From an uncultured Tateyamaria sp. (GTDB lineage Bacteria; Pseudomonadota; Alphaproteobacteria; Rhodobacterales; Rhodobacteraceae), in contig NZ_CANNGP010000005.1 in NCBI RefSeq assembly GCF_947504105.1, positions 1 to 64,000 of the forward strand: a DNA stretch of 64,000 nucleotides, given 5' to 3'. Under the pieces are notes generated by a model that saw only the letters and a list, made by a program, of their open reading frames with translations, did no database searches and was not told where the DNA came from. The position numbers and the translations under genes are program-made. Below are positions 42,183 to 51,682 of the stretch, piece by piece; the first letter of the stretch is position 1; the number at the start of each line of letters is the position of its first letter.

Positions 42183-42836
42183 TCAGACCGCCGTCCACAG
42201 GCCAACGCCGCCCACGACAATCAGGCTGAGGGCCCAGACCAATTCCAGATCAAACCAGCTACGGCTCAGGAATTGTAGACCTAGCCAGCGGTGCACGGCA
42301 TAGGCAACAGCGCCCCCCGATCCCATCATCGCCACCGTGTGTAGTACAGCAACTCCAAGTGCCAACGCTGTTGTTGCCATAAGGGCAGAGGCCGCGCGAT
42401 GGCCTGCGTCCAGTTCCTCGATCGCACAAAGACCAAGATAGATGGGCACCAGCATCAGCGCTGCCCCATGTGCAAGCGCAACCAAAAAAGACCAGAGTGT
42501 CAGCTTGTGCGGGGGAATGCGCGCGAGGAACCGAGGGTGTTTGCGTGTGATGGCAAGGTAAAGGCCCATGGTGATCACGACCAACCCGGCGCCAATGCGG
42601 ATCTCGCGTTCGTAGTCAATGAGCAGCGTCATCAGCGAAAATGGCAGCAGGATGCCGAGCATTGCCGCAAAATGACCCAAGGACAGCGCCCCGAGCGCCG
42701 GCCAAAGCGCACTGCGCTTGCGTTCGAACAGGGCGGACGACACGGCAAGCGGCCAGCCCATACCGGGGTTCAGCCCGTGATAGAGGCCGGAGAGGATCAC
42801 GGCGAGCCAGAGGCCCGCCGTGGTCGTAAGGTCCAT
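42183..42836 (-). CDS. Polytopic membrane protein coupled to mtoX
   Basis: A 217-residue integral membrane protein with about six spans. Conserved-looking histidines lie in LYHGLNPGMGW (His20), LGHFAAM (His55), LAHGAALMLVP (about His122) and LHTVAMMG. The pattern of paired His/Pro/Gly in membrane helices recalls metal permeases of the NicO/HupE kind, though I cannot place it firmly. Its ATG overlaps the mtoX stop (ATGA), so the two are translationally coupled. Metal supply to the copper-dependent oxidase is a reasonable inference. Confidence 0.6.
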   Translation of the reverse strand: MDLTTTAGLWLAVILSGLYHGLNPGMGWPLAVSSALFERKRSALWPALGALSLGHFAAMLGILLPFSLMTLLIDYEREIRIGAGLVVITMGLYLAITRKHPRFLARIPPHKLTLWSFLVALAHGAALMLVPIYLGLCAIEELDAGHRAASALMATTALALGVAVLHTVAMMGSGGAVAYAVHRWLGLQFLSRSWFDLELVWALSLIVVGGVGLWTAV

Positions 42837-44236
42837 CAGACCGATGGGTAGCAGAAACTGTCCGTCGAACAGTCGCCACCCTCAAGCCGGATCTGGTGGC
42901 TGCGGTAGCCTTCAGGGAACTTTGTCCAGAAGTTTTCATCCAGCGTCAGTCCGCCGTTTTCACCCACATGGGCCATGACCATCGCCGCGCCGCGCTCGCC
43001 GGGATAGAACTGGTCATCCCAGGTGGAATAGAGCGAGTTGGTCCAGTAGACGCGTTTTCCGTCGCGGCTGATCTCGACCATCTGCGGGCCGTAGCCAAAG
43101 TCCTTGCCATTGGGGTGTTTGGTTTTCTTGACGATGCCGCCAATTTCGACCTTGCCAGCGAGCACGGGATTCATCGGATCGGACACGTCGTATTGATGCA
43201 TTTCACCAAGGCCCCAGCAGGCAACGTAGAGGTACTTGTCATCGAGGCTCAGGTCGATGTCTGTGACCAGCGGTGGCACCGCACCAAAGCCCTTGAGGAG
43301 GTCGGGCAGGTCGTCCGCGTCCGCAGGCACGGGGTCGATGGTGATCGTCTTTTTGGCCTGCCATTCACCGTCCTCATCCCGCCACCAGGTAAAGATCGCA
43401 CCCTGCAGGTTGGTGGTATCAACCACCACGCCACAGAACCCATATTCCTTGACCGGGTCGTGGGCTGGGCGGATTTCCAGCGCCATCTGGTGATTTTCTC
43501 CCAGGTCGATGGACTTCGTTACCTTACGCCCGCGCAGGTCCCAGAAGTGGATCGTGTGGCCGTATTTGTTGGACAGAAGATCCTCTGGCACCACACCATT
43601 TTCGAATTGCGGCGGGAGGCCCCATTCGCTGCTGACCATGTAGTCGCGCGGCAGGTTCCACCAGAAATCGTAATGCTTGTCCTGAATGCCGCGGTCCATC
43701 TCGTAGCGGCCCAGAATGTCGAAGGTTTCGCAATCCATGATGAAGATACCGGGAGGGCCATCGGTGCCATCCTCACCACCGCCGCCCAGGGTCGATACAT
43801 AGATGCCCTCGGGTCCGCAGTGAATGGTGTGAGGGCGGGAATAGCCCGTCTTGTCAAACAGTTCTTCGGGTTCGATGATCTTGTGGATCTTGGCTTTGAG
43901 CGGTTCCTTTACATCAATAATGTAGATGCGCGACGACCGGATGCCAGGAATGATCAGGTAACGGCGTTCAAGAAACGCGTGGCCGGTGAGGGGGCTGAGC
44001 GCCGAAGAACAGGCATTCCAACCGAAATGGTGAAACTCGTCACCAAGGTTGGGGACATAAAGCTCATGGACGATCTGGCTGTAAGTGTCGCTCGTGGGAT
44101 CAACATCGACAACCGCAAGGCCATCGGGTTTGGTCCCATCAGGGCTGAGCATCAGCGTAAACGCCAATTTCTCAACCGGGGCTTCCATGGCCATCTTGGG
44201 CGAGGGGTGAAATGTGGGATCGGGTCTTAAATTCAT
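42836..44236 (-). CDS. mtoX: Methanethiol oxidase / selenium-binding protein SBP56 family
   Basis: A 466-residue SBP56-family protein of full family length (about 460-470). In bacteria such as Hyphomicrobium and roseobacters the family is methanethiol oxidase, a copper enzyme converting methanethiol to formaldehyde, sulfide and peroxide. Family blocks include HHFGWNACSSALS (about residues 67-79), SRPHTIHCGPEGIYVSTLGG, RDYMVSSEWG and DIDLSLDDKYLYVACWGLGEMHQYDVSDP. There is no N-terminal signal peptide, which is worth noting since some characterised MtoX are periplasmic. A strong GGGAGGAC site precedes ATG 44236. Downstream of the GntR gene and coupled to the membrane protein. Confidence 0.85.
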   Translation of the reverse strand: MNLRPDPTFHPSPKMAMEAPVEKLAFTLMLSPDGTKPDGLAVVDVDPTSDTYSQIVHELYVPNLGDEFHHFGWNACSSALSPLTGHAFLERRYLIIPGIRSSRIYIIDVKEPLKAKIHKIIEPEELFDKTGYSRPHTIHCGPEGIYVSTLGGGGEDGTDGPPGIFIMDCETFDILGRYEMDRGIQDKHYDFWWNLPRDYMVSSEWGLPPQFENGVVPEDLLSNKYGHTIHFWDLRGRKVTKSIDLGENHQMALEIRPAHDPVKEYGFCGVVVDTTNLQGAIFTWWRDEDGEWQAKKTITIDPVPADADDLPDLLKGFGAVPPLVTDIDLSLDDKYLYVACWGLGEMHQYDVSDPMNPVLAGKVEIGGIVKKTKHPNGKDFGYGPQMVEISRDGKRVYWTNSLYSTWDDQFYPGERGAAMVMAHVGENGGLTLDENFWTKFPEGYRSHQIRLEGGDCSTDSFCYPSV

Positions 44237-44310
44237 AGCGTCCTCCCTGACGTATGGTTGACGATCAGTGCCCGACCCCTCGGATGCCTTTGCGACTTTT
44301 GGGGGAAGGA

Positions 44311-45066
44311 TCAGGCGGTCTTGTGCTCCTTTTCTGCGGCCTTTTGCGCGCGGGCAGTGACGACCGAATGGGCCAGCTCTCGCGTGTAGGCTTCTAATTT
44401 AACCAATGTCGCGTCGATCTTGGCGGCGTCCCGAGCCTCGACCGCGTCCGCGATGTCCGTGTGCAGCGCCACAATCGCTTCGCGCGACCGGGCGGTGAAC
44501 GTGATCATGTTCATAAGGGGCTGCATCGCCTCGACCGCACCGGCAAGCTGATAGCTGAGTACCTTGTTGCCTGCGCCATCCACCAAGGCCCGGTGAAAGG
44601 TGACATCAGAGGCACAAAACGCCTCGTCGGTGAGGCCGGGCTGGCCTTGACGGTGAATTTCCGCCCGCATCGTCGCCAAATGATCCGGCGTACGGCGCGC
44701 CGCGGAAAGCGGGGCACAGGCACGCTCCAGCGCATAGCGCGCTTCACAGGCGACATCGAAACTGACAGCATTCATGGACAGCAACAGGGTCGAGGTCGTG
44801 ACCTGCTGGGCATAAGCATCCTCGAACCGCAGGCGGTTCACGAAAGCGCCGCCAGTGGCCCCGCGCTGGGTTCTGATCAACGATTGCGCCGCGAGTCGCT
44901 TTAGGGCCTCGCGCACCGTGGGCCGGGATACGTCAAAGTGATCGGCAAGCTCGGCCTCGCTTGGAAGCCGTTGATCCACAATCAAATCACCTGCGATAAT
45001 GGCATCCCGGATCGCCTTGGCAATCTGGGCAGAGAGATCAACTGTGCTGTCGGGATCAATTTTCAT
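44311..45066 (-). CDS. FadR-family GntR regulator (DmdR-like)
   Basis: A 251-residue regulator. The N-terminal winged helix has LPSEAELADHFDVSRPTVREALKRLAAQSLI (about 35-65). The C-terminal FCD ligand domain spans about 90-230 with His/Asp residues in SDVTFHRALVDGAG and ALHTDIADAVEARD. GntR regulators near dmdA control the demethylase in roseobacters, and acryloyl-CoA-type ligands have been proposed. It is the first gene leftwards, followed by mtoX 74 bases later, and diverges from the DUF2182-dmdA operon across two operator-like palindromes. Confidence 0.85.
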   Translation of the reverse strand: MKIDPDSTVDLSAQIAKAIRDAIIAGDLIVDQRLPSEAELADHFDVSRPTVREALKRLAAQSLIRTQRGATGGAFVNRLRFEDAYAQQVTTSTLLLSMNAVSFDVACEARYALERACAPLSAARRTPDHLATMRAEIHRQGQPGLTDEAFCASDVTFHRALVDGAGNKVLSYQLAGAVEAMQPLMNMITFTARSREAIVALHTDIADAVEARDAAKIDATLVKLEAYTRELAHSVVTARAQKAAEKEHKTA

Positions 45067-45093
45067 TTGTCATACATTTTAATGTCTGACATT
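45067..45093. promoter_or_regulatory. Two GntR/FadR-type operator candidates
   Basis: TTGTCATACAT (45067-45077) fits the FadR-type pattern TNGTNNNACNA at ten of eleven positions. AATGTCTGACATT (45081-45093) is a perfect 13-base palindrome with the same GT...AC core. They sit immediately upstream of the regulator start and 43 bases from DUF2182, so one regulator could control both directions. Confidence 0.65.
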
Positions 45094-45135
45094 TAATCTG
45101 GCAAGCATTGAGTCGCATGAGGTCAGGGAGGACAC

Positions 45136-45924
45136 ATGTCGCACATCGTTCGTTCGACCCTCTGGCTGGGGTTCTTCGGCGCGATTTTGGCGTCGTGGTG
45201 GGTCCTGTATTCCATGTCGCTTTCCATGGACGTGGACCTTTTTGGTCGCCCAGGAGATATGGGCGCGCGCATGGCTGCCATGGACCCGCGCATGCCCATG
45301 TACATGCCGATGGCCAATTTTGGTCCGCTGTTTGCCATGTGGGCGATCATGATGGCCGCTATGATGTTGCCGACATTGGTGCCGACCTTGCGCAGCTACG
45401 AGGACCTGATGGTGTCGGCAAACGGCACGCGGGCAGGGTGGCTGGGTGTGCTACTGGGCTACTTCGTGGTTTGGGTCGCCTTTGCTGCGCTGATCTCGGC
45501 TGTGCAACTGGCCTTGCTTTATGGTGGCATCATCGACATGCTGGGCATACCCAAGACCACCACATTTGCGGGCCTGCTTCTGCTGGCCGTCGGTCTGTTC
45601 CAATTCACCCGAGCGAAGGAAATCTGCCATGGCGTCTGCCATAGCCCCATGACCTATTTTCTCGGCCACTGGCGCACCGGCTTTGCGGGCGGGTTGCGCA
45701 TGGGGCTAGGCCTCGGCGCGTTTTGCGTGGGCTGTTGTTGGGGCTTCATGGCCCTTGGCTTTGTCGGCGGCGTGATGAGCCTTTTGTGGATGGGCCTTGC
45801 CACGCTGTTTATGGTGATCGAAAAACTGCCCCAGATCGGGCATGTTGTTGCAAAACCCATGGGGGTTCTACTGGTGCTGGGTGGTATCGGTGTGCTCGCA
45901 TATCCCGTTGTTTCAGGAGGATAA
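45136..45924 (+). CDS. DUF2182 membrane protein, predicted metal-binding
   Basis: A 262-residue polytopic protein of the DUF2182 family, which is described as a predicted metal-binding integral membrane protein. About six or seven spans are seen. A Met-rich loop, with Met at 53, 55, 57 and 59 in DPRMPMYMPM, resembles soft-metal binding segments. Later come CHGVCHSP (164-171) and CVGCCWG (197-203), placing five cysteines and two histidines near membrane faces. AGGGAGGAC precedes ATG 45136. It is the first gene of the operon that ends with dmdA and acuI. Function is not established; copper or iron handling is inferred. Confidence 0.8.
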   Translation: MSHIVRSTLWLGFFGAILASWWVLYSMSLSMDVDLFGRPGDMGARMAAMDPRMPMYMPMANFGPLFAMWAIMMAAMMLPTLVPTLRSYEDLMVSANGTRAGWLGVLLGYFVVWVAFAALISAVQLALLYGGIIDMLGIPKTTTFAGLLLLAVGLFQFTRAKEICHGVCHSPMTYFLGHWRTGFAGGLRMGLGLGAFCVGCCWGFMALGFVGGVMSLLWMGLATLFMVIEKLPQIGHVVAKPMGVLLVLGGIGVLAYPVVSGG

Positions 45925-45925
45925 G

Positions 45926-46633
45926 ATGGCCGTGAAAAAACGCCCCGACGCGGATAAGTTGCCGGTCAGTCAGCGCATCGACAGCCGGATGCCCAACCCG
46001 GGCCGGCGGCAGATGTCGCCCACCGAATGGGCTATCAAGGGCGAACTGTTTCTCAACTGTTCGTGCGAGCTCTTTTGTCCCTGCGTCGTCTCGCTTGGCG
46101 CGCACCCGCCCACCGAAGGGCATTGCCACGCGTGGATGGCCATTGCCATTGACGAAGGGCATTTCGAAGGCGAGGACCTGAGCGGCCTGAACGTCGGCCT
46201 GATGGTCGATATCCCTGGTCGTATGGGGGAAGGCGGCTGGCGCGTCGCGGCCTATGTGGACGAGCGCGCAAGCGGCAAGGCCTACAATGGCATCCTGCAG
46301 ATCTTCTCTGGCGCCGCAGGCGGCACTACGGGTCTCTTCACCATGCTGGTCAGCGACATCGTAGGCGCCGAACGCGAGAAGGTCGAGATCGTGCGCGAGG
46401 GCAAGAAACGCGGCCTCTATATCGGGCGCAAGATCCAGGGCGAGATCGAGATGATCACCGGCAAGTCCGAGGATCACCCGGTTATGATCACCAACTCCAA
46501 GTACTGGATGGGGCCGGATATCATCGCAGCCCGCGGCGTGAAATCCAAGGTGCGCGACTACGGCCGCATCTGGGACTTCGGCGGCAAATCCGCGGAAATC
46601 TGCCCGATCGACTGGAAAGGTCCCAAGCCATGA
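45926..46633 (+). CDS. DUF1326 cysteine-rich protein
   Basis: A 235-residue soluble protein of the DUF1326 family. The hallmark CSCELFCPC (Cys45, 47, 51, 53) is followed by GHCHAW (His66, Cys67, His68), a likely soft-metal site or redox centre. The rest is mixed alpha/beta without a signal peptide. DUF1326 genes are commonly found next to DUF2182 genes, as here with a one-base gap. CAGGAGG precedes ATG 45926. It ends inside the DinB start (ATGA). Role unknown; a partner that loads or moves metal for the DUF2182 protein is a reasonable guess. Confidence 0.8.
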   Translation: MAVKKRPDADKLPVSQRIDSRMPNPGRRQMSPTEWAIKGELFLNCSCELFCPCVVSLGAHPPTEGHCHAWMAIAIDEGHFEGEDLSGLNVGLMVDIPGRMGEGGWRVAAYVDERASGKAYNGILQIFSGAAGGTTGLFTMLVSDIVGAEREKVEIVREGKKRGLYIGRKIQGEIEMITGKSEDHPVMITNSKYWMGPDIIAARGVKSKVRDYGRIWDFGGKSAEICPIDWKGPKP

Positions 46634-47139
46634 TCGACGCGGGTTATGTACGTACCATGGCCCGTTACAACGCCTGGCAGAACCGCCAACTGACGGAAAT
46701 GCTCACAGGCGTGCCGGACGAGGACCTGCGCAAGGATCGCGGTGCTTTCTTCGGGTCCATCATGGCGACGCTTAACCACATCCTGTGGGGCGACACGATC
46801 TGGATGAGCCGGTTCGACCCGGACCTGCCTCCGCCGTCTGTTCCGCCCGAACAGCATAAGGAATTCACCCCGACATTCGCGGTCTGGAGTGCAGAGCGCT
46901 TCCGCATGGACGGCACGATCCGCCTTTGGGGTGACCGCCTCGACACTGTGGCGCTCAAAGGCGATTTGTCTTGGTATTCCGGCACCTTACAGCAGGGCTT
47001 TGAAATGCCGCTTGAAACCTGCGTGGTGCACCTTTTCACCCACCACGCCCACCACCGGGGTCAGGTCCACGCCATGATGACGGCCACCGGTCTGACCGCT
47101 CCCGTTACTGATATTGTGTTCATGCCAAAGGACGACTGA
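46630..47139 (+). CDS. DinB/YfiT-like metalloprotein
   Basis: A 169-residue four-helix DinB-fold protein. The usual metal triad appears as His50 (ATLNHIL) and two His in HLFTHHAHHRGQ (His138 and His142), a family-typical C-terminal motif. Some DinB-fold proteins are thiol-S-transferases that use bacillithiol or mycothiol, and others lack a known role. It overlaps both neighbours by one to four bases, so it is fixed in the operon between DUF1326 and dmdA. A reaction with a sulfur compound of the pathway is possible but unproven. Confidence 0.8.
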   Translation: MIDAGYVRTMARYNAWQNRQLTEMLTGVPDEDLRKDRGAFFGSIMATLNHILWGDTIWMSRFDPDLPPPSVPPEQHKEFTPTFAVWSAERFRMDGTIRLWGDRLDTVALKGDLSWYSGTLQQGFEMPLETCVVHLFTHHAHHRGQVHAMMTATGLTAPVTDIVFMPKDD

Positions 47140-48242
47140 TGGCCGTTATCTCTCCATCGCGCCGCCTGCGCCGTACGCCGTTTTCGGACGGGGTCGAGGC
47201 GGCAGGCGTCAAAGCCTACACCATCTACAACCGCATGCTGCTGCCGACCGTGTTCGAAAGCGTCGAGGCAGATTACCGCCATCTCAAAGACCATGTGCAG
47301 GTCTGGGACGTCTCGGTCGAACGGCAGGTCGAGCTGCGCGGTCCTGATGCAGGCCGCCTGATGCAGATGCTGACTCCGCGCGATTTGCGCCGGATGCTGC
47401 CCGGGCAATGCTATTACGTCCCCATAGTGGATGAGACAGGTGGCATGCTGAATGACCCCGTTGCTGTAAAGCTCAGCGAGGACCGGTGGTGGATTTCCAT
47501 TGCTGACAGCGACCTGCTCTTGTGGGTCAAGGGGATCGCCAACGGCTACCGGCTTGATGTGCTGGTGGATGAACCGGACGTGTCACCCCTCGCCATTCAA
47601 GGTCCAAAGGCCGACGAACTCATGGCGCGCGTGTTCGGCGATCGTATCCGCGACATCCGTTTCTTCCGTTTCGATATGTTCCAGTTCGAAGGCTGCGATC
47701 TTGCGATTGCACGCTCGGGGTACTCCAAGCAGGGCGGGTTCGAAATCTATGTGCCAGACAGCGCGCTTGGCATGCCGCTGTGGGACGCGTTGTTTAACGC
47801 AGGCGAAGACCTACAGGTCCGTGCGGGCTGCCCCAATGCCATTGAGCGGATCGAAGGTGGGCTCTTGAGCTATGGCAATGACATGACCGACGACAACACA
47901 CCGCATGAGTGCGGGTTGGGGCGGTTCTGCGACACCCAGACGGCTATCGGTTGTATCGGACGTGACGCGCTTTTGCGCGTGTCCAAGGAAGGGCCGGTTC
48001 AGCAAATTCGCCCCATCGTTATCCATGGGGATGCGGTGCCGACCTGTGACCGACCTTGGCCCCTTTTGGCCGGCGGCAAACGCGTGGGGCAGGTAACGTC
48101 GGCTGCATGGTCGCCAGACTTCAAGACCAATGTCGCCATCGGTATGGTGCGGATGACACATTGGGATCCCGGAACTGACCTCGAAGTCGACACCCTCGAT
48201 GGGATATGCCGGGCCACGGTACAAGAGGCGTTCTGGTTATAA
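47139..48242 (+). CDS. dmdA: DMSP demethylase (DmdA family)
   Basis: A 367-residue GcvT-fold protein close to DmdA, which moves a methyl group from dimethylsulfoniopropionate to tetrahydrofolate, giving methylmercaptopropionate. DmdA-type blocks include SRRLRRTPF near the start, AYTIYNRMLLPTVF (about 27-40), KLSEDRWWISIADSD and IERIEGGLLSYGNDM. The SGYSKQGGFEIYV segment has Tyr where I recall Trp in the Pelagibacter enzyme, though some roseobacter proteins may share it. ATG overlaps the dinB stop. acuI follows after a GC-rich repeat, the classical demethylation operon order. Confidence 0.87.
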   Translation: MAVISPSRRLRRTPFSDGVEAAGVKAYTIYNRMLLPTVFESVEADYRHLKDHVQVWDVSVERQVELRGPDAGRLMQMLTPRDLRRMLPGQCYYVPIVDETGGMLNDPVAVKLSEDRWWISIADSDLLLWVKGIANGYRLDVLVDEPDVSPLAIQGPKADELMARVFGDRIRDIRFFRFDMFQFEGCDLAIARSGYSKQGGFEIYVPDSALGMPLWDALFNAGEDLQVRAGCPNAIERIEGGLLSYGNDMTDDNTPHECGLGRFCDTQTAIGCIGRDALLRVSKEGPVQQIRPIVIHGDAVPTCDRPWPLLAGGKRVGQVTSAAWSPDFKTNVAIGMVRMTHWDPGTDLEVDTLDGICRATVQEAFWL

Positions 48243-48248
48243 ACGTGG

Positions 48249-48300
48249 AACCGGGGCGCTGCCCCGGACCCCGAAGTTTACTTTGCAAGATGAAGCAGGG
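48249..48300. repeat. GC-rich intergenic palindromic repeat
   Basis: ACCGGGGCGCTGCCCCGG forms a hairpin followed by ACCCCGAAGTTTACTTTGCAAGATGAAG-like sequence. It resembles the repeat at 13843-13895 in layout. It lies between dmdA and acuI and could reduce read-through or shape mRNA decay. Confidence 0.55.
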
Positions 48301-48328
48301 GATCATCCCCCGAAAAATGGAGAACAAG

Positions 48329-49315
48329 ATGTTCAATGCACTGGTGGTCAACAAGGACGAAGAAAGTGGCAAGACGTCCGCTGCGGTGCAGGAACTGTCG
48401 CTGGATGATCTGCCGCAAGCCGAGGTAACCGTGGCGGTCGAGTATTCAACCGTGAACTACAAGGACGGTCTTTGCATTGGCCCGGGCGGCGGGTTGGTCC
48501 GCAAATACCCTCATGTGCCGGGCATCGACTTTGCCGGGACCGTCGAGGCATCAGACGATGATCGTTACAAGCCCGGCGACAAGGTCGTGTTAACCGGCTG
48601 GCGTGTCGGTGAAGCGCATTGGGGTGGCTATTCGCAAAAGGCGAGGGTCAAAGCGGACTGGCTGGTGCCGCTGCCTGAGGGCCTCGATACCCGGCAGGCG
48701 ATGGCCGTGGGCACTGCTGGTTTTACGGCAATGCTGGCGGTGATGGCGCTGGAAGATCATGGGATCAAATCCGGACCTGTTCTGGTCACGGGGGCTGCCG
48801 GCGGTGTTGGGTCGGTTGCGACAGCCATTCTCGCGCACTTGGGTCATACCGTTGCAGGCGTTACGGGGCGGCCTGAAACAGCCGACTATCTGACGTCACT
48901 TGGCGCGAGCCAGATTGTTGCACGCGAAGAGATCAATGAAACCACCAAGCGCCCGCTTGAGGGTGAAACCTGGGGCGGCTGTGTTGACGCCGTCGGTGGT
49001 GCAATGCTGGCGCGTGTTTTGGGTCAAATGGAATACGGCGCGTCAGTCGCGGCCGTCGGTCTGGCAGGGGGCGCGGGCTTGCCCGCGACGGTCATCCCAT
49101 TCTTGCTGCGCGGTGTGAACCTTTTAGGCATCGACAGTGTCATGCAACCTTATGACAACCGCGTCCGCGCGTGGCAGCGTGTTGCCAAGGACCTACCCAT
49201 GGACAAGCTCGAAGCCATGGTTCAGCCCGCCACTCTGTCCGATCTGCCAAAGCTGGGTGCGGATATCCTGAAAGGGCAAATCAAGGGCCGCGTCGTGGTC
49301 GACGTGAACGCCTGA
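48329..49315 (+). CDS. acuI: Acryloyl-CoA reductase
   Basis: A 328-residue zinc-free medium-chain reductase of the AcuI (YhdH-like) type. It reduces acryloyl-CoA to propionyl-CoA with NADPH, removing the toxic intermediate of DMSP cleavage. Family blocks are VEYSTVNYKDGLCIG, PHVPGIDFAGTVE, GWRVGEAHWGGYSQKARV, the cofactor motif VTGAAGGVGSVA and RGVNLLGIDSV. ATG 48329 follows GGAG; an ATG four codons earlier is also possible. It is the sixth gene of the DUF2182-dmdA-acuI block and pairs with dmdA as in other roseobacters. Confidence 0.9.
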   Translation: MFNALVVNKDEESGKTSAAVQELSLDDLPQAEVTVAVEYSTVNYKDGLCIGPGGGLVRKYPHVPGIDFAGTVEASDDDRYKPGDKVVLTGWRVGEAHWGGYSQKARVKADWLVPLPEGLDTRQAMAVGTAGFTAMLAVMALEDHGIKSGPVLVTGAAGGVGSVATAILAHLGHTVAGVTGRPETADYLTSLGASQIVAREEINETTKRPLEGETWGGCVDAVGGAMLARVLGQMEYGASVAAVGLAGGAGLPATVIPFLLRGVNLLGIDSVMQPYDNRVRAWQRVAKDLPMDKLEAMVQPATLSDLPKLGADILKGQIKGRVVVDVNA

Positions 49316-49841: not shown

Positions 49842-51682
49842 CTATTCCGCCGGTTGTCCAATCGCGTCGTCCGACTTGGCGCGGCGGCTGTCGTTGAACA
49901 GTGCCTTGACCAGCGACACCATCATCAGAACCATAATGATGGTGAAGGGCAGGGCACCGATGATCATGGCATCTTGAAGCGACGCCAGTGGATCACCCCC
50001 GCGGCCCGAGGCCCCTGCAATGATCAATCCGCCAATGACACCTGTCATGATCAATCCCCAGATGATCCGGTGTTTGATGCCCGTTTCCTGTGCGCCACCC
50101 GACATGATGGTGTTCATCACAAGGATGCCGGAATCAGCCGAGGTGACAAGGAAGGTCATGATCAGCACCACGCACATGATGGTGATGACCGATAGGAAGC
50201 CACCCTCGATCATGTAGCTGAGGGTCACAAACAACTTGTTGGTGTTCGACGCGCCGATAATGGCCCCATCTGCCACACCCTGCAGTTCCAGATCGATCGC
50301 TGTTCCGCCCAATATGGTCATCCAGGCAAAGCAGACCAGAGCCGGGGCAAACACGCAGCCCAAGATGAACTCGCGGATCGTGCGGCCTTTCGAGATGCGC
50401 GCCAGGAACAGACCGACGAAGGGAGAGAAGGCAATCCACCACGCCCAATAGAAGGTTGTCCAACCCGATTGCCAGCCGAACAGGCGACCTTGGGCGCCGG
50501 CTTCATAGGCCGCCGCCTGCGTTTCAGGCGGCAGCGATGCTGCGACCCCTTCGAGGCCGCCGGTAAAGCCATCGACACTGCCCCAGGCGTTTGTTGCCCC
50601 GCTATACAGATCGGCAGCCATCGGCGCGGCCTCTTCCGGCAGGTTCGCGGCAAACGCATCTTGGCCCAGCGGGCTATACGCCTCAAAGCTGAGCGGAATG
50701 AACTGGATGATGTAGTCCACCAATGCCGTGCCATATGTCGTCATCGCGAACACGAAGCTGCCAAAGATCACGAAGGTCAGCAGCAGGATGATCGACAGCA
50801 CAAGGTTGAGGTTCGACAGGTATTTGATCCCACGACCCACACCCGACACGGCGGACAGGATCGAAAGAAACATGATAACGGCCAGTGCCGACAACAGACC
50901 AACGGTGGACGGCGTTGGCGGCGCATCCCCCTCGGCCACACCCATCAACCAGCTCATTCCGGTCACGGCATAAACGCCGTCAACGAACTGGCTTACCCCG
51001 TATCCGATCGTGACGGACACGCCGAGGATGGTGGCGACGACGCCCAGCACATCAACGATGTGACCCACGATGCCGTTGGCGACCTTGCCCAATATTGGCG
51101 TCAGCGCCGACCGGATGGTCAGGGGCATATCGCGGGTATAGGCGTAGTAGGCTAGGCTCAGCCCGGTGACCACGTAAATAGCCCAGGCGTGGAACCCGTA
51201 GTGCAGGAAAGTGTAGCGGTACGCCGAGGTCAGTGCTTCGGGCGTGTGTTCCCAACCACATTGCCGGCGACAGTCTCGGGGTTCGAGCCCCAAAGTCCAA
51301 GCGGTTCGGCAGTGGCAAACACCATCAACCCGACACCAAGGCCCGCGCCGAACATCATCGAGAACCAAGAAAAGTTGGAAAACTCGGGCACCGTCTCTGG
51401 CCCGCCCAGTTTGCGCTTGCCCGTGGGAAGGATCGCAAGAGCAAACAGAAAGAAGGCAAAGCACCCGACCGAAATAATGTAAAAGGCATTGAAACCCTGC
51501 AAGAGCGCCCAATTCCAGTCGTCAAGCGTGCCATTCGCGCTGACGGGAAAGATGATGGCCCACAGCACAAGGGCGACCATTACGGCCTTGGACTTGAGTG
51601 CGATGGGAAGGCTGTAGCCTTCGTAGAACCCTGACTGTTGTTTGGTGATATCAAGGTCCGTGAACGGTTCCTTAAGTGCCAT
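49842..51682 (-). pseudogene. BCCT osmolyte transporter with an apparent frameshift
   Basis: A betaine/choline/carnitine-type transporter read in two frames. Residues 1-147 are encoded from 51682 to about 51253 and include the BCCT entry region (GFYEGYSLPIALKSK, then FSNFSWFSMMFGAGLGVGLM). The rest, from EHTPEALTSAYRYTFLHYGFHAW onward, is in the next frame and reaches 49842. Together about 613 residues make a normal transporter with twelve spans and FYWAWWIAFSPFVG near the substrate site. The break lies at a GGG run (51251-51253 on the plus strand) and looks like one lost base. It is either a real pseudogene or a sequencing error. The likely substrate is betaine or DMSP. Confidence 0.8.

Follow-up and report, generated by a model that had tools for sequence, protein, structure and literature searches.

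Demethylation of DMSP, for which dmdA serves as marker gene, sets the share of marine sulfur that goes to methanethiol versus DMS. Among the closest described systems, dmdA-acuI of Ruegeria pomeroyi is induced by acrylate, and many organisms that do not use DMSP have AcuI as well (PMC3338564); here and below, cited work is represented by the accessible part of each text. The methanethiol oxidase MtoX requires copper (PMC5739008), and Ruegeria lacuscaerulensis, which is without mtoX, appears to convert methanethiol sulfur to sulfide (PMC7157515). PpoB2 from Marinomonas mediterranea hands copper specifically to PpoB1, a tyrosinase (PMC2855505). We compare with these systems a locus of an uncultured Tateyamaria sp., located in a window (the whole stretch of DNA that was analyzed) of 64,000 nucleotides. 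Our literature search found no paper with DUF1326 or DUF2182, two families encoded side by side in this locus; the conserved dmdA operon of Gonzalez et al. 2019, known to us by citation, may show part of it. The DUF2182-DUF1326 pair is unnamed in the titles and abstract openings among the matches listed for the DMSP, dmdA, copper, and COG5486 literature, the accessible parts of PMC9873259, PMC7487153, and PMC4770636 are silent on it, and that of PMC12366255 holds nothing matching.

Organization of the Locus

The genes for a GntR/FCD regulator, an SBP56 protein, and a membrane protein (MEM) lie on the reverse strand, divergent from a forward-strand DMSP operon with the order DUF2182-DUF1326-DinB-DmdA-AcuI, and the gene content, strands, and order given in the initial annotation are borne out by the gene calls and profile matches. 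Its statement that most genes overlap was too strong, as only three of the six same-strand junctions do: SBP56/MEM (1 base), DUF1326/DinB (4 bases), and DinB/DmdA (1 base). There are gaps of 1 base between DUF2182 and DUF1326, of 74 bases between DmdA and AcuI (counted to a start at 48317), and of 74 bases between GntR and SBP56. DmdA (47139..48242, +), a predicted DMSP demethylase, scores 693.8 bits with the NF009133 equivalog (cut-off 410), and its best PDB match is 3TFH. AcuI, an acrylyl-CoA reductase (48317..49315, +), ends at 49315 and most likely starts at 48317; it reaches 445.2 bits with TIGR02823 (cut-off 297) and 642 bits with the AcuI structures PDB 5GXE/5GXF, and stays just under the cut-off of the NF051456 equivalog (415.8 against 440 bits). 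Neither DmdA nor AcuI is known to us as a copper enzyme. The DinB-family protein (46630..47139, +) matches PF05163 with 80.1 bits (cut-off 23), its PF04978 match being below cut-off, and has the His triad that we take to mark membership of the DinB superfamily, with H50 kept in 77 of 78 sequences and H138 and H142 in 75 of 78. A search of the structure database returned no credible solved structure matching DinB, DUF2182, or DUF1326.

The regulator (44311..45066, −) exceeds the cut-offs of both PF00392 (65 against 27 bits) and PF07729 (67 against 24.3 bits), and its gene is present in 74 of the 80 related loci. Between gntR and DUF2182 there is a gap (45067..45135), a putative shared control region, which contains two TGTNNNACA sites, TGTCATACA at 45068 and TGTCTGACA at 45083. 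All 75 GntR-DUF2182 gaps examined have such a site, with two sites in 36 of them, against 2.4% of mononucleotide shuffles, and the pattern is also found in two loci where dmdA directly follows GntR (L066, L067). It is presumably the operator of the GntR FCD subfamily, and we infer that the regulator binds these sites. No TGTNNNACA was found within 250 bases upstream of SBP56 in any of 21 regions, the window's included and L203 left out, which rules out a separate operator ahead of that gene. In the window's own genome, the double site is present here and in one other place; because a backward control pattern gave three matches, such operator pairs say nothing about a regulon.

The DUF2182-DUF1326 Pair Is Linked to dmdA

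For the family Rhodobacteraceae we sampled a single genome from each of 61 genera, and the counts, all from one family, are not phylogenetically independent. Locus counts were made with tblastn; the gene caller had skipped genes in some loci (for example, MEM in L036 and several in L038, L053, L055, and L060). DmdA is present in 26 of the 61 genera, and in 20 of these the pair precedes dmdA in the same orientation, separated from it by no more than one gene, a recurrence for which chance does not account. The GntR gene adjoins the pair in 16 of these 20 loci. The three small genes before dmdA had been proposed as an accessory module of the DMSP operon, and this holds for DUF2182 and DUF1326, while DinB, found in 10 of the 20 dmdA-linked family loci and in 66 of the 80 related ones (some cut by contig ends), is common yet optional. 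Wherever it is located, the pair occurs in 21 of the 26 DmdA genera versus 9 of the 35 others (Fisher p = 2e-5, 61 genera, kinship ignored); it is missing from five DmdA genera and lies away from dmdA in a sixth (G001). In five genomes the pair is beside acuI without an adjoining dmdA (G001, G004, G006, G019, and G040; in G004 it is divergent from acuI), in others it accompanies a DmdB-like ligase (G008, G032, G056, G252, and family f37), and it is linked to DMSP genes on Marinovum and Antarctobacter plasmids. Beyond Rhodobacteraceae, the class draw contained 22 genomes with DmdA, of which only one (G252) showed the adjacency intact; in a genome of another family (G094, locus L109), the gene immediately ahead of dmdA is what is left of a decayed DUF1326.

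DUF1326 (45926..46633, +) matches PF07040 with 165.9 bits against a gathering score of 25. In our tree, all 34 DMSP-linked DUF1326 rows fall in one clade of 38 rows (support 100/100, stem 1.19), two in-clade rows (L078, L084) having no DMSP neighbor, and none of the 32 rows outside it is DMSP-linked. Because of this division (34/38 vs. 0/32), the pair looks like an accessory unit dedicated to the pathway, found also on plasmids and in other families. The contexts of DUF1326 outside the clade (six plasmid records and three genome loci) are varied, with no common partner besides DUF2182, and were dropped as a clue to function for that reason. The window protein has C45, C47, C51, C53, and C67 together with H60, W70, and W194, and the Cys pattern CxCx3CxC...C is invariant in the clade. 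Its AlphaFold model, with a mean pLDDT of 38.5, is too poor for use.

DUF2182 (45136..45924, +) scores 197.5 bits with PF09948 (gathering score 28.7), a family that Pfam now names "PpoB2, copper chaperone", and residues M68, M72, M76, M77, C164, C168, C197, C200, C201, and M205 are kept in 50 of 50 relatives. It had been listed as uncharacterized, a label that does not suit its family, since PpoB2 is a characterized relative (PMC2855505).

The SBP56 Protein and Its Membrane Partner

The SBP56 protein (42836..44236, −) matches PF05694 with 575.9 bits (gathering score 34). The name MtoX, under which it was introduced, has to be withdrawn: with the NCBIfam MtoX equivalog NF052453 it scores 114 bits where the cut-off is 650, so it is not an orthodox MtoX. 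Orthodox MtoX exceeds that cut-off in 2 of the 61 genera, and none was found in the window's own genome, in which this is the only SBP56 found. The protein keeps the HH pair, two Trp, and the C-terminal His columns of two distinct MtoX sequences (L214, identical to L211, and L215), the H122 column being aligned in only part of the MtoX sequences. By hydropathy, a crude test, it has no hydrophobic N-terminal stretch and thus no visible signal peptide, and there is no SCO1/SenC or MauG gene beside it, its neighbors being GntR and MEM. We regard it as a candidate alternative methanethiol oxidase.

MEM (42183..42836, −) has no credible Pfam, NCBIfam, or PDB match and shows no homology to DUF2182 (probability 0.6%), and its AlphaFold model (mean pLDDT 47.6) is too poor for use; H20, M26, H55, H123, M128, C137, H166, and M170 are invariant in a 14-row alignment. 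The MEM-linked SBP56 proteins form one clade of 29 rows, separate from MtoX and with no visible signal peptide, and in all the cases that we examined a MEM gene comes after the SBP56 gene. In addition, 10 of 10 clear MEM matches in 289 class genomes directly follow an SBP56 gene (one 19.5-bit match was left uncounted). Most SBP56-MEM units lie away from the DMSP locus, and they are found too in Rhizobium, Azospirillum, and others. Full-length window-type SBP56 occurs in 12 of the 26 dmdA genera versus 3 of the 35 others (p = 1e-3, 61 genera). An SBP56 gene adjoins the locus in 10 of the 80 named loci, all Tateyamaria, and in 3 of the 61 genera (G000, G043, and G003, the last with a locus without pair and dmdA) plus one Marinovum plasmid. 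Such rarity rules out the SBP56 linkage, on which the initial annotation laid its stress, as the chief conserved feature: that adjacency is nearly unique to the strain, that of the pair is not, and the conserved part of the locus is the DUF pair before dmdA.

Discussion

The association of the pair with DMSP genes is strong. In our preferred reading, to which we assign a probability of roughly 0.5, DUF2182 and DUF1326 are a copper-handling pair dedicated to DMSP, joined in Tateyamaria by an SBP56 unit that is likely to serve methanethiol oxidation. GntR would control the DMSP demethylation operon of this Tateyamaria-like roseobacter. The DUF2182 membrane protein, which by analogy with PpoB2 we propose as a copper donor, would pass Cu(I) to the soluble, Cys-rich DUF1326, a proposed copper acceptor or client, and the latter would hold or deliver copper for the MMPA/methanethiol-side chemistry of DMSP breakdown. 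DmdA and AcuI are encoded further along the operon, and DinB would be an accessory of thiol or metal type that the operon can do without. Across the operator gap, gntR is followed by the second unit, a non-MtoX-clade SBP56 with its membrane partner, which most likely oxidizes methanethiol in a strain where no orthodox mtoX was found. Copper as the ligand, the direction of transfer, the client, and the SBP56 substrate are what we infer; our searches turned up no copper-binding experiment on this DUF2182 or on DUF1326 of the DMSP-linked clade. In a bolder version, which we hold to be improbable, the DMSP-linked DUF1326 proteins would be copper enzymes in their own right, with methanethiol or MMPA as substrate, and DUF2182 would be dedicated to providing them with copper, as PpoB2 does for PpoB1; such an enzyme would supply the methanethiol-degrading activity of roseobacters without mtoX.

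The same residues could serve thiols rather than copper, a doubtful but still worthwhile alternative in which DUF1326, through its Cys cluster, and DUF2182, a membrane protein with Cys and Met residues, would have sulfane sulfur or thiols (methanethiol or those formed from MMPA) to bind, to render harmless, or to transport, and DinB would be a thiol transferase. The invariant Cys pattern of the clade, the existence of thiol transferases within the DinB superfamily (the PF04978 match being below cut-off), and the linkage of the pair to both dmdA and dmdB-like genes are consistent with it, but the sole characterized DUF2182 relative met here, PpoB2, acts on copper (PMC2855505), and the literature search gave no paper naming either DUF. 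It is unlikely that the pair works with AcuI against damage by acrylate or acryloyl-CoA and not in demethylation: the acrylate induction of dmdA-acuI in R. pomeroyi and the five genomes with the pair near acuI would fit this, but three family f37 genomes have the pair with dmdB-like genes and no acuI, and AcuI itself is found more widely than DMSP use (PMC3338564).

A metal role as suggested in the initial annotation is reasonable for DUF2182, a PF09948 member and PpoB2 relative; the loading of metal into the SBP56/MtoX enzyme as the general job of the module is not, and we consider it quite unlikely. The gap shared by the pair and SBP56 in Tateyamaria and G043, the position of SBP56 downstream of acuI on plasmid pMaD9, the copper requirement of MtoX (PMC5739008), and the association of window-type SBP56 with the pair (p = 0.006, 61 genera) argue for it. 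However, 18 of 30 pair genomes are without a full-length window-type SBP56 (15 when contig-cut fragments assigned to the type are counted), six DmdA genomes with the pair have no SBP56 match at all (G005, G011, G015, G029, G049, and G059), and the f37 pair genomes G322, G224, and G097 are outside the 20 SBP56-bearing class genomes, so SBP56 loading cannot be the only job of the pair; conversely, SBP56-MEM occurs without the pair in G003, G022, G038, and a Rhizobium plasmid stretch. Finally, much of the linkage is at one syntenic chromosomal place, as expected if the genes had merely inherited an old roseobacter order and had nothing to do with each other in function. This is very unlikely given that the DUF1326 clade is met again beside DMSP genes in different layouts, in further families, and on plasmids, and that the pair opens an operon whose upstream gap has conserved operator-like sites.

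Should a dedicated copper-type pair stand at the head of most dmdA operons in roseobacters, copper supply may limit or protect the flux, and the pair could sharpen the annotation of true DMSP demethylation loci. Since orthodox MtoX exceeded its cut-off in just 2 of the 61 genera, concrete candidates for methanethiol handling without it, as R. lacuscaerulensis appears to perform, are the DUF pair and SBP56-MEM.

Comparison With Known Systems

In R. pomeroyi (SPO1913-SPO1914), acuI directly follows dmdA, as in the window; the cloned 2.4-kb fragment comprised dmdA, acuI, and the promoter, and the accessible text makes no mention of the pair and DinB in front (PMC3338564). MtoX (Hyphomicrobium VS; R. 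pomeroyi SPOA0269) belongs to the same SBP56 superfamily as the window protein, which keeps the His/Trp columns attributed to Cu/TTQ, but has SCO1 and MauG alongside, whereas the window SBP56 is beside a membrane protein without Pfam family (PMC5739008). The selenium-binding protein of PDB 2ECE, whose entry gives no function, matches the window SBP56 with 559 bits; the alignment begins at chain residue 7 and covers almost the whole length. PpoB2 (COG5486, PF09948) shares its Pfam family with the window DUF2182 and, like it, is the operon partner of another gene's product; it serves a tyrosinase, whereas the partner here is DUF1326, in a DMSP catabolism operon (PMC2855505). Plasmid pMaD9 of Marinovum algicola DG 898 (CP010864) has a cluster of a regulator, DUF2182, DUF1326, an AMP ligase, DmdA, AcuI, SBP56, and a relative of MEM (64% identical). 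Unlike the window, it carries the ligase gene and is without DinB, and its SBP56-MEM unit comes after acuI, in the same orientation, rather than on the divergent side of the gap; its DUF2182 and DUF1326 are annotated as involved in DMSP breakdown.

The dmdA operon of the window and its conservation

All the genes reported in the initial annotation were found in the window, at 42183-49315. On the minus strand, outward from the centre, lie a GntR/FCD regulator, an SBP56 gene and a gene for a membrane protein of 217 residues (MEM), and on the plus strand DUF2182, DUF1326, DinB, DmdA and AcuI are followed by an HIT gene. The initial annotation's description of overlaps among most genes was too strong, as overlaps, of 1-4 bases, occur at three of the six same-strand junctions. 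DmdA scores 693.8 bits against an equivalog cut-off of 410, and AcuI passes the TIGR02823 cut-off and falls slightly below that of NF051456. Two uncultured Tateyamaria isolates carry a DUF1326 protein 100% identical to this one, which places the genome close to Tateyamaria. Between dmdA and acuI (48243-48316) is a G+C-rich inverted repeat, CCGGGGC...GCCCCGG, which could be a repeat element or an attenuator. The adjoining BCCT transporter gene (49842-51682, minus strand) is read in two overlapping frames, split near 51240, either by a true break or by an assembly error; at the matching place in locus L112 there is one undivided 612-residue frame.

We drew 61 Rhodobacteraceae genomes, one per genus, and found DUF2182 and DUF1326 in an identical set of 30, DmdA above its cut-off in 26 and SBP56 in 24. 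Of the 26 DmdA genomes, 20 have the pair upstream of dmdA in the same orientation and at most 1.7 kb away, with nothing, DinB or a ligase gene in between; GntR adjoins 16 of these 20 pairs and DinB 10. One further DmdA genome, G001, has the pair elsewhere, and five are without it. In G054 one small gene parts DUF2182 from DUF1326. Pair and DmdA co-occur (21/26 vs 9/35, Fisher p=2e-5; for the 56 genomes with completeness of 90% or more, p=1e-5). In this and all our other survey counts the cases are not independent, since they come from one family or one class, and neighbour genes were identified by score thresholds that we set. Among the best 80 named loci by closeness to the DUF1326 alignment, some of which end at a contig edge, DUF2182 is present in 80, AcuI in 76, GntR in 74, DmdA in 73, DinB in 66, and SBP56 with MEM in 10, every one Tateyamaria. 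An eleventh Tateyamaria locus, L120, is without SBP56, MEM and the neighbouring acyltransferase, and its gntR directly adjoins a 116-residue gene, marking the borders of a block gained or lost. In L065 (G014:C59) the dmdA match is in pieces, one with a stop, and the adjacent DUF pair is seemingly intact.

The form of the window is GntR | DUF2182-DUF1326-(DinB)-DmdA-AcuI, and the pair is also found in others. A ligase gene stands between the pair and dmdA in G008, G032, G056 and a Marinovum plasmid, after dmdA in G252, from another family, and behind the pair without adjoining dmdA in G322, G224 and G097 (family f37); a relative with a small genome (L107) also has this subfamily close to dmdA. 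This ligase passes the NCBIfam PRK08162 cut-off and is far below the model named methylthiopropionyl-CoA ligase, so the name DmdB would be inferred from position. The pair is near acuI, with dmdA not adjacent, in G001, G004, G006, G019 and G040, divergently in G004. Outside the family, the class draw of 289 genomes held 22 DmdA genomes and an intact adjacent pair in one (G252). In G094, likewise outside the family, dmdA is immediately preceded by what is left of a decayed DUF1326 gene (L109:8517-8686), spread over several frames in fragments too short for our tree, suggesting that the linkage was formerly present there.

Linkage of dmdA and acuI is already published (PMC3338564), and a conserved dmdA operon is credited to a 2019 paper in PMC7487153. 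A Marinovum algicola database record annotates the two DUF proteins as taking part in DMSP breakdown, so annotators had noticed the linkage; in the literature searched, we found neither DUF1326 nor DUF2182 named.

A DMSP-linked clade of DUF1326

We called a DUF1326 row DMSP-linked when a DmdA, AcuI or DmdB-like match above our score limits lay within 3.5 kb. In a maximum-likelihood tree of 70 rows, all 34 linked rows fell in one 38-row group (support 100/100; stem of 1.19 changes per column) and 0/32 rows outside were linked, some long branches there being unsure. The four unlinked members are L033 and L056, which stop at contig ends, and L078 and L084, which have no DMSP neighbour. With these last two excluded, C45, C47, C51, C53 and C67 are kept in 36/36 clade rows and 26-27/32 outside, and H60, W70 and W194 in 36/36 vs 0/32. 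DUF2182 comes first in nearly all clade rows, DUF1326 mostly first outside. The group thus looks like a DMSP-dedicated clade. L084 (8785-11904), basal to the DMSP type, is without DUF2182, and its neighbours, identified by eye, resemble hydrolase, racemase and SnoaL genes, a hint that this branch serves another pathway.

The SBP56-MEM unit

The SBP56 protein had been called MtoX, an assignment we do not retain: it scores 114 bits against the MtoX equivalog cut-off of 650, and its clade is well separate. Orthodox MtoX passes the cut-off in 2/61 genera. The window's SBP56 shows no visible signal peptide and is the only SBP56 in its genome. By alignment column, it keeps the His pair, two Trp and C-terminal His to which copper/TTQ roles have been attributed (Eyice et al., PMC5739008; a 2024 mBio paper, PMC10936201). 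R. lacuscaerulensis, which lacks mtoX, seems to produce sulfide from methanethiol, and its two other SBP56-family genes were proposed as candidates (PMC7157515).

In a 37-row SBP56 tree, a branch with support 95/88 divides the 29 rows with adjoining MEM from the 8 that lack it. SBP56 directly precedes all 10 clear MEM matches in the 289 class genomes (an eleventh, at 19.5 bits, was left out), and precedes MEM in 6/6 plasmid records; a Rhodovulum plasmid record has SBP56 unannotated, matched as two overlapping pieces. MEM has no credible match in Pfam or PDB, and H20, M26, H55, H123, M128, C137, H166 and M170 are invariant in 14 rows.

Window-type SBP56 is enriched with DmdA (12/26 vs 3/35, p=1e-3; 15 vs 3, p=4e-5, with fragments that we typed), and other types are not (p=0.5). 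It touches the DMSP locus in G000 and G043. In G003 (L192:11316-14002), SBP56-MEM follows a close relative of the window gntR, and the genes facing that regulator are an acyl-CoA dehydrogenase (identified by eye), DinB and AcuI, without the DUF pair or DmdA. Three such cases among 15 have a binomial probability of 5e-5, a simple estimate that takes 20 kb of 4.2 Mb, but all three are chromosomal, apparently occupy a single syntenic position and could reflect one event; Marinovum pMaD9 has SBP56 at the locus in a different layout. SBP56-MEM also occurs on Rhizobium, Azospirillum, Rhodobacter and Phaeobacter plasmids with no DMSP genes annotated nearby, and is thus a general module. Another SBP56 type, with some 40-42% identity, precedes ferredoxin-like and CoA-binding-like proteins (named by eye) in 5/5 loci (L205-L209), a different conserved cluster.

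The control region

The GntR-DUF2182 gap carries TGTNNNACA, which we take to be an FCD-type operator pattern, in 75/75 cases (the window and 74 of the best 80 loci), twice in 36, at a chance rate of 2.4% in mononucleotide shuffles. It was present in 19/19 GntR gaps of a second locus set, including L066 and L067, where dmdA directly follows GntR. A genome-wide double-site search was uninformative. No such site was found upstream of SBP56 genes (0/21 regions of 250 bases); in the window SBP56 comes after gntR in the same orientation, and the two may be co-transcribed. DMSP and acrylate induce dmdA-acuI in R. pomeroyi (PMC3338564).

A possible copper route

Hydropathy indicates a soluble DUF1326 protein, in which five Cys are conserved, and 50/50 DUF2182 relatives keep the Met and Cys columns of DUF2182. 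On the simplest reading, DUF2182 would supply copper and DUF1326 receive it, for a task in the methanethiol-releasing branch of DMSP demethylation. Methanethiol is a thiol and a strong copper binder. Metal loading of SBP56, one of the roles the initial annotation had offered for the module, cannot be the pair's only task, because 18 of the 30 pair genomes are without full-length window-type SBP56. DUF1326 could instead guard or supply some other client, or could itself be the acting copper protein, which would be a novel case; structure predictions for it and MEM, from shallow alignments, were too poor to use. The copper-supplying role for DUF2182 would have a precedent in its own family, PF09948. 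That family takes its name from the Marinomonas mediterranea protein PpoB2, which provides copper to the tyrosinase PpoB1 and does not serve another oxidase (PMC2855505).
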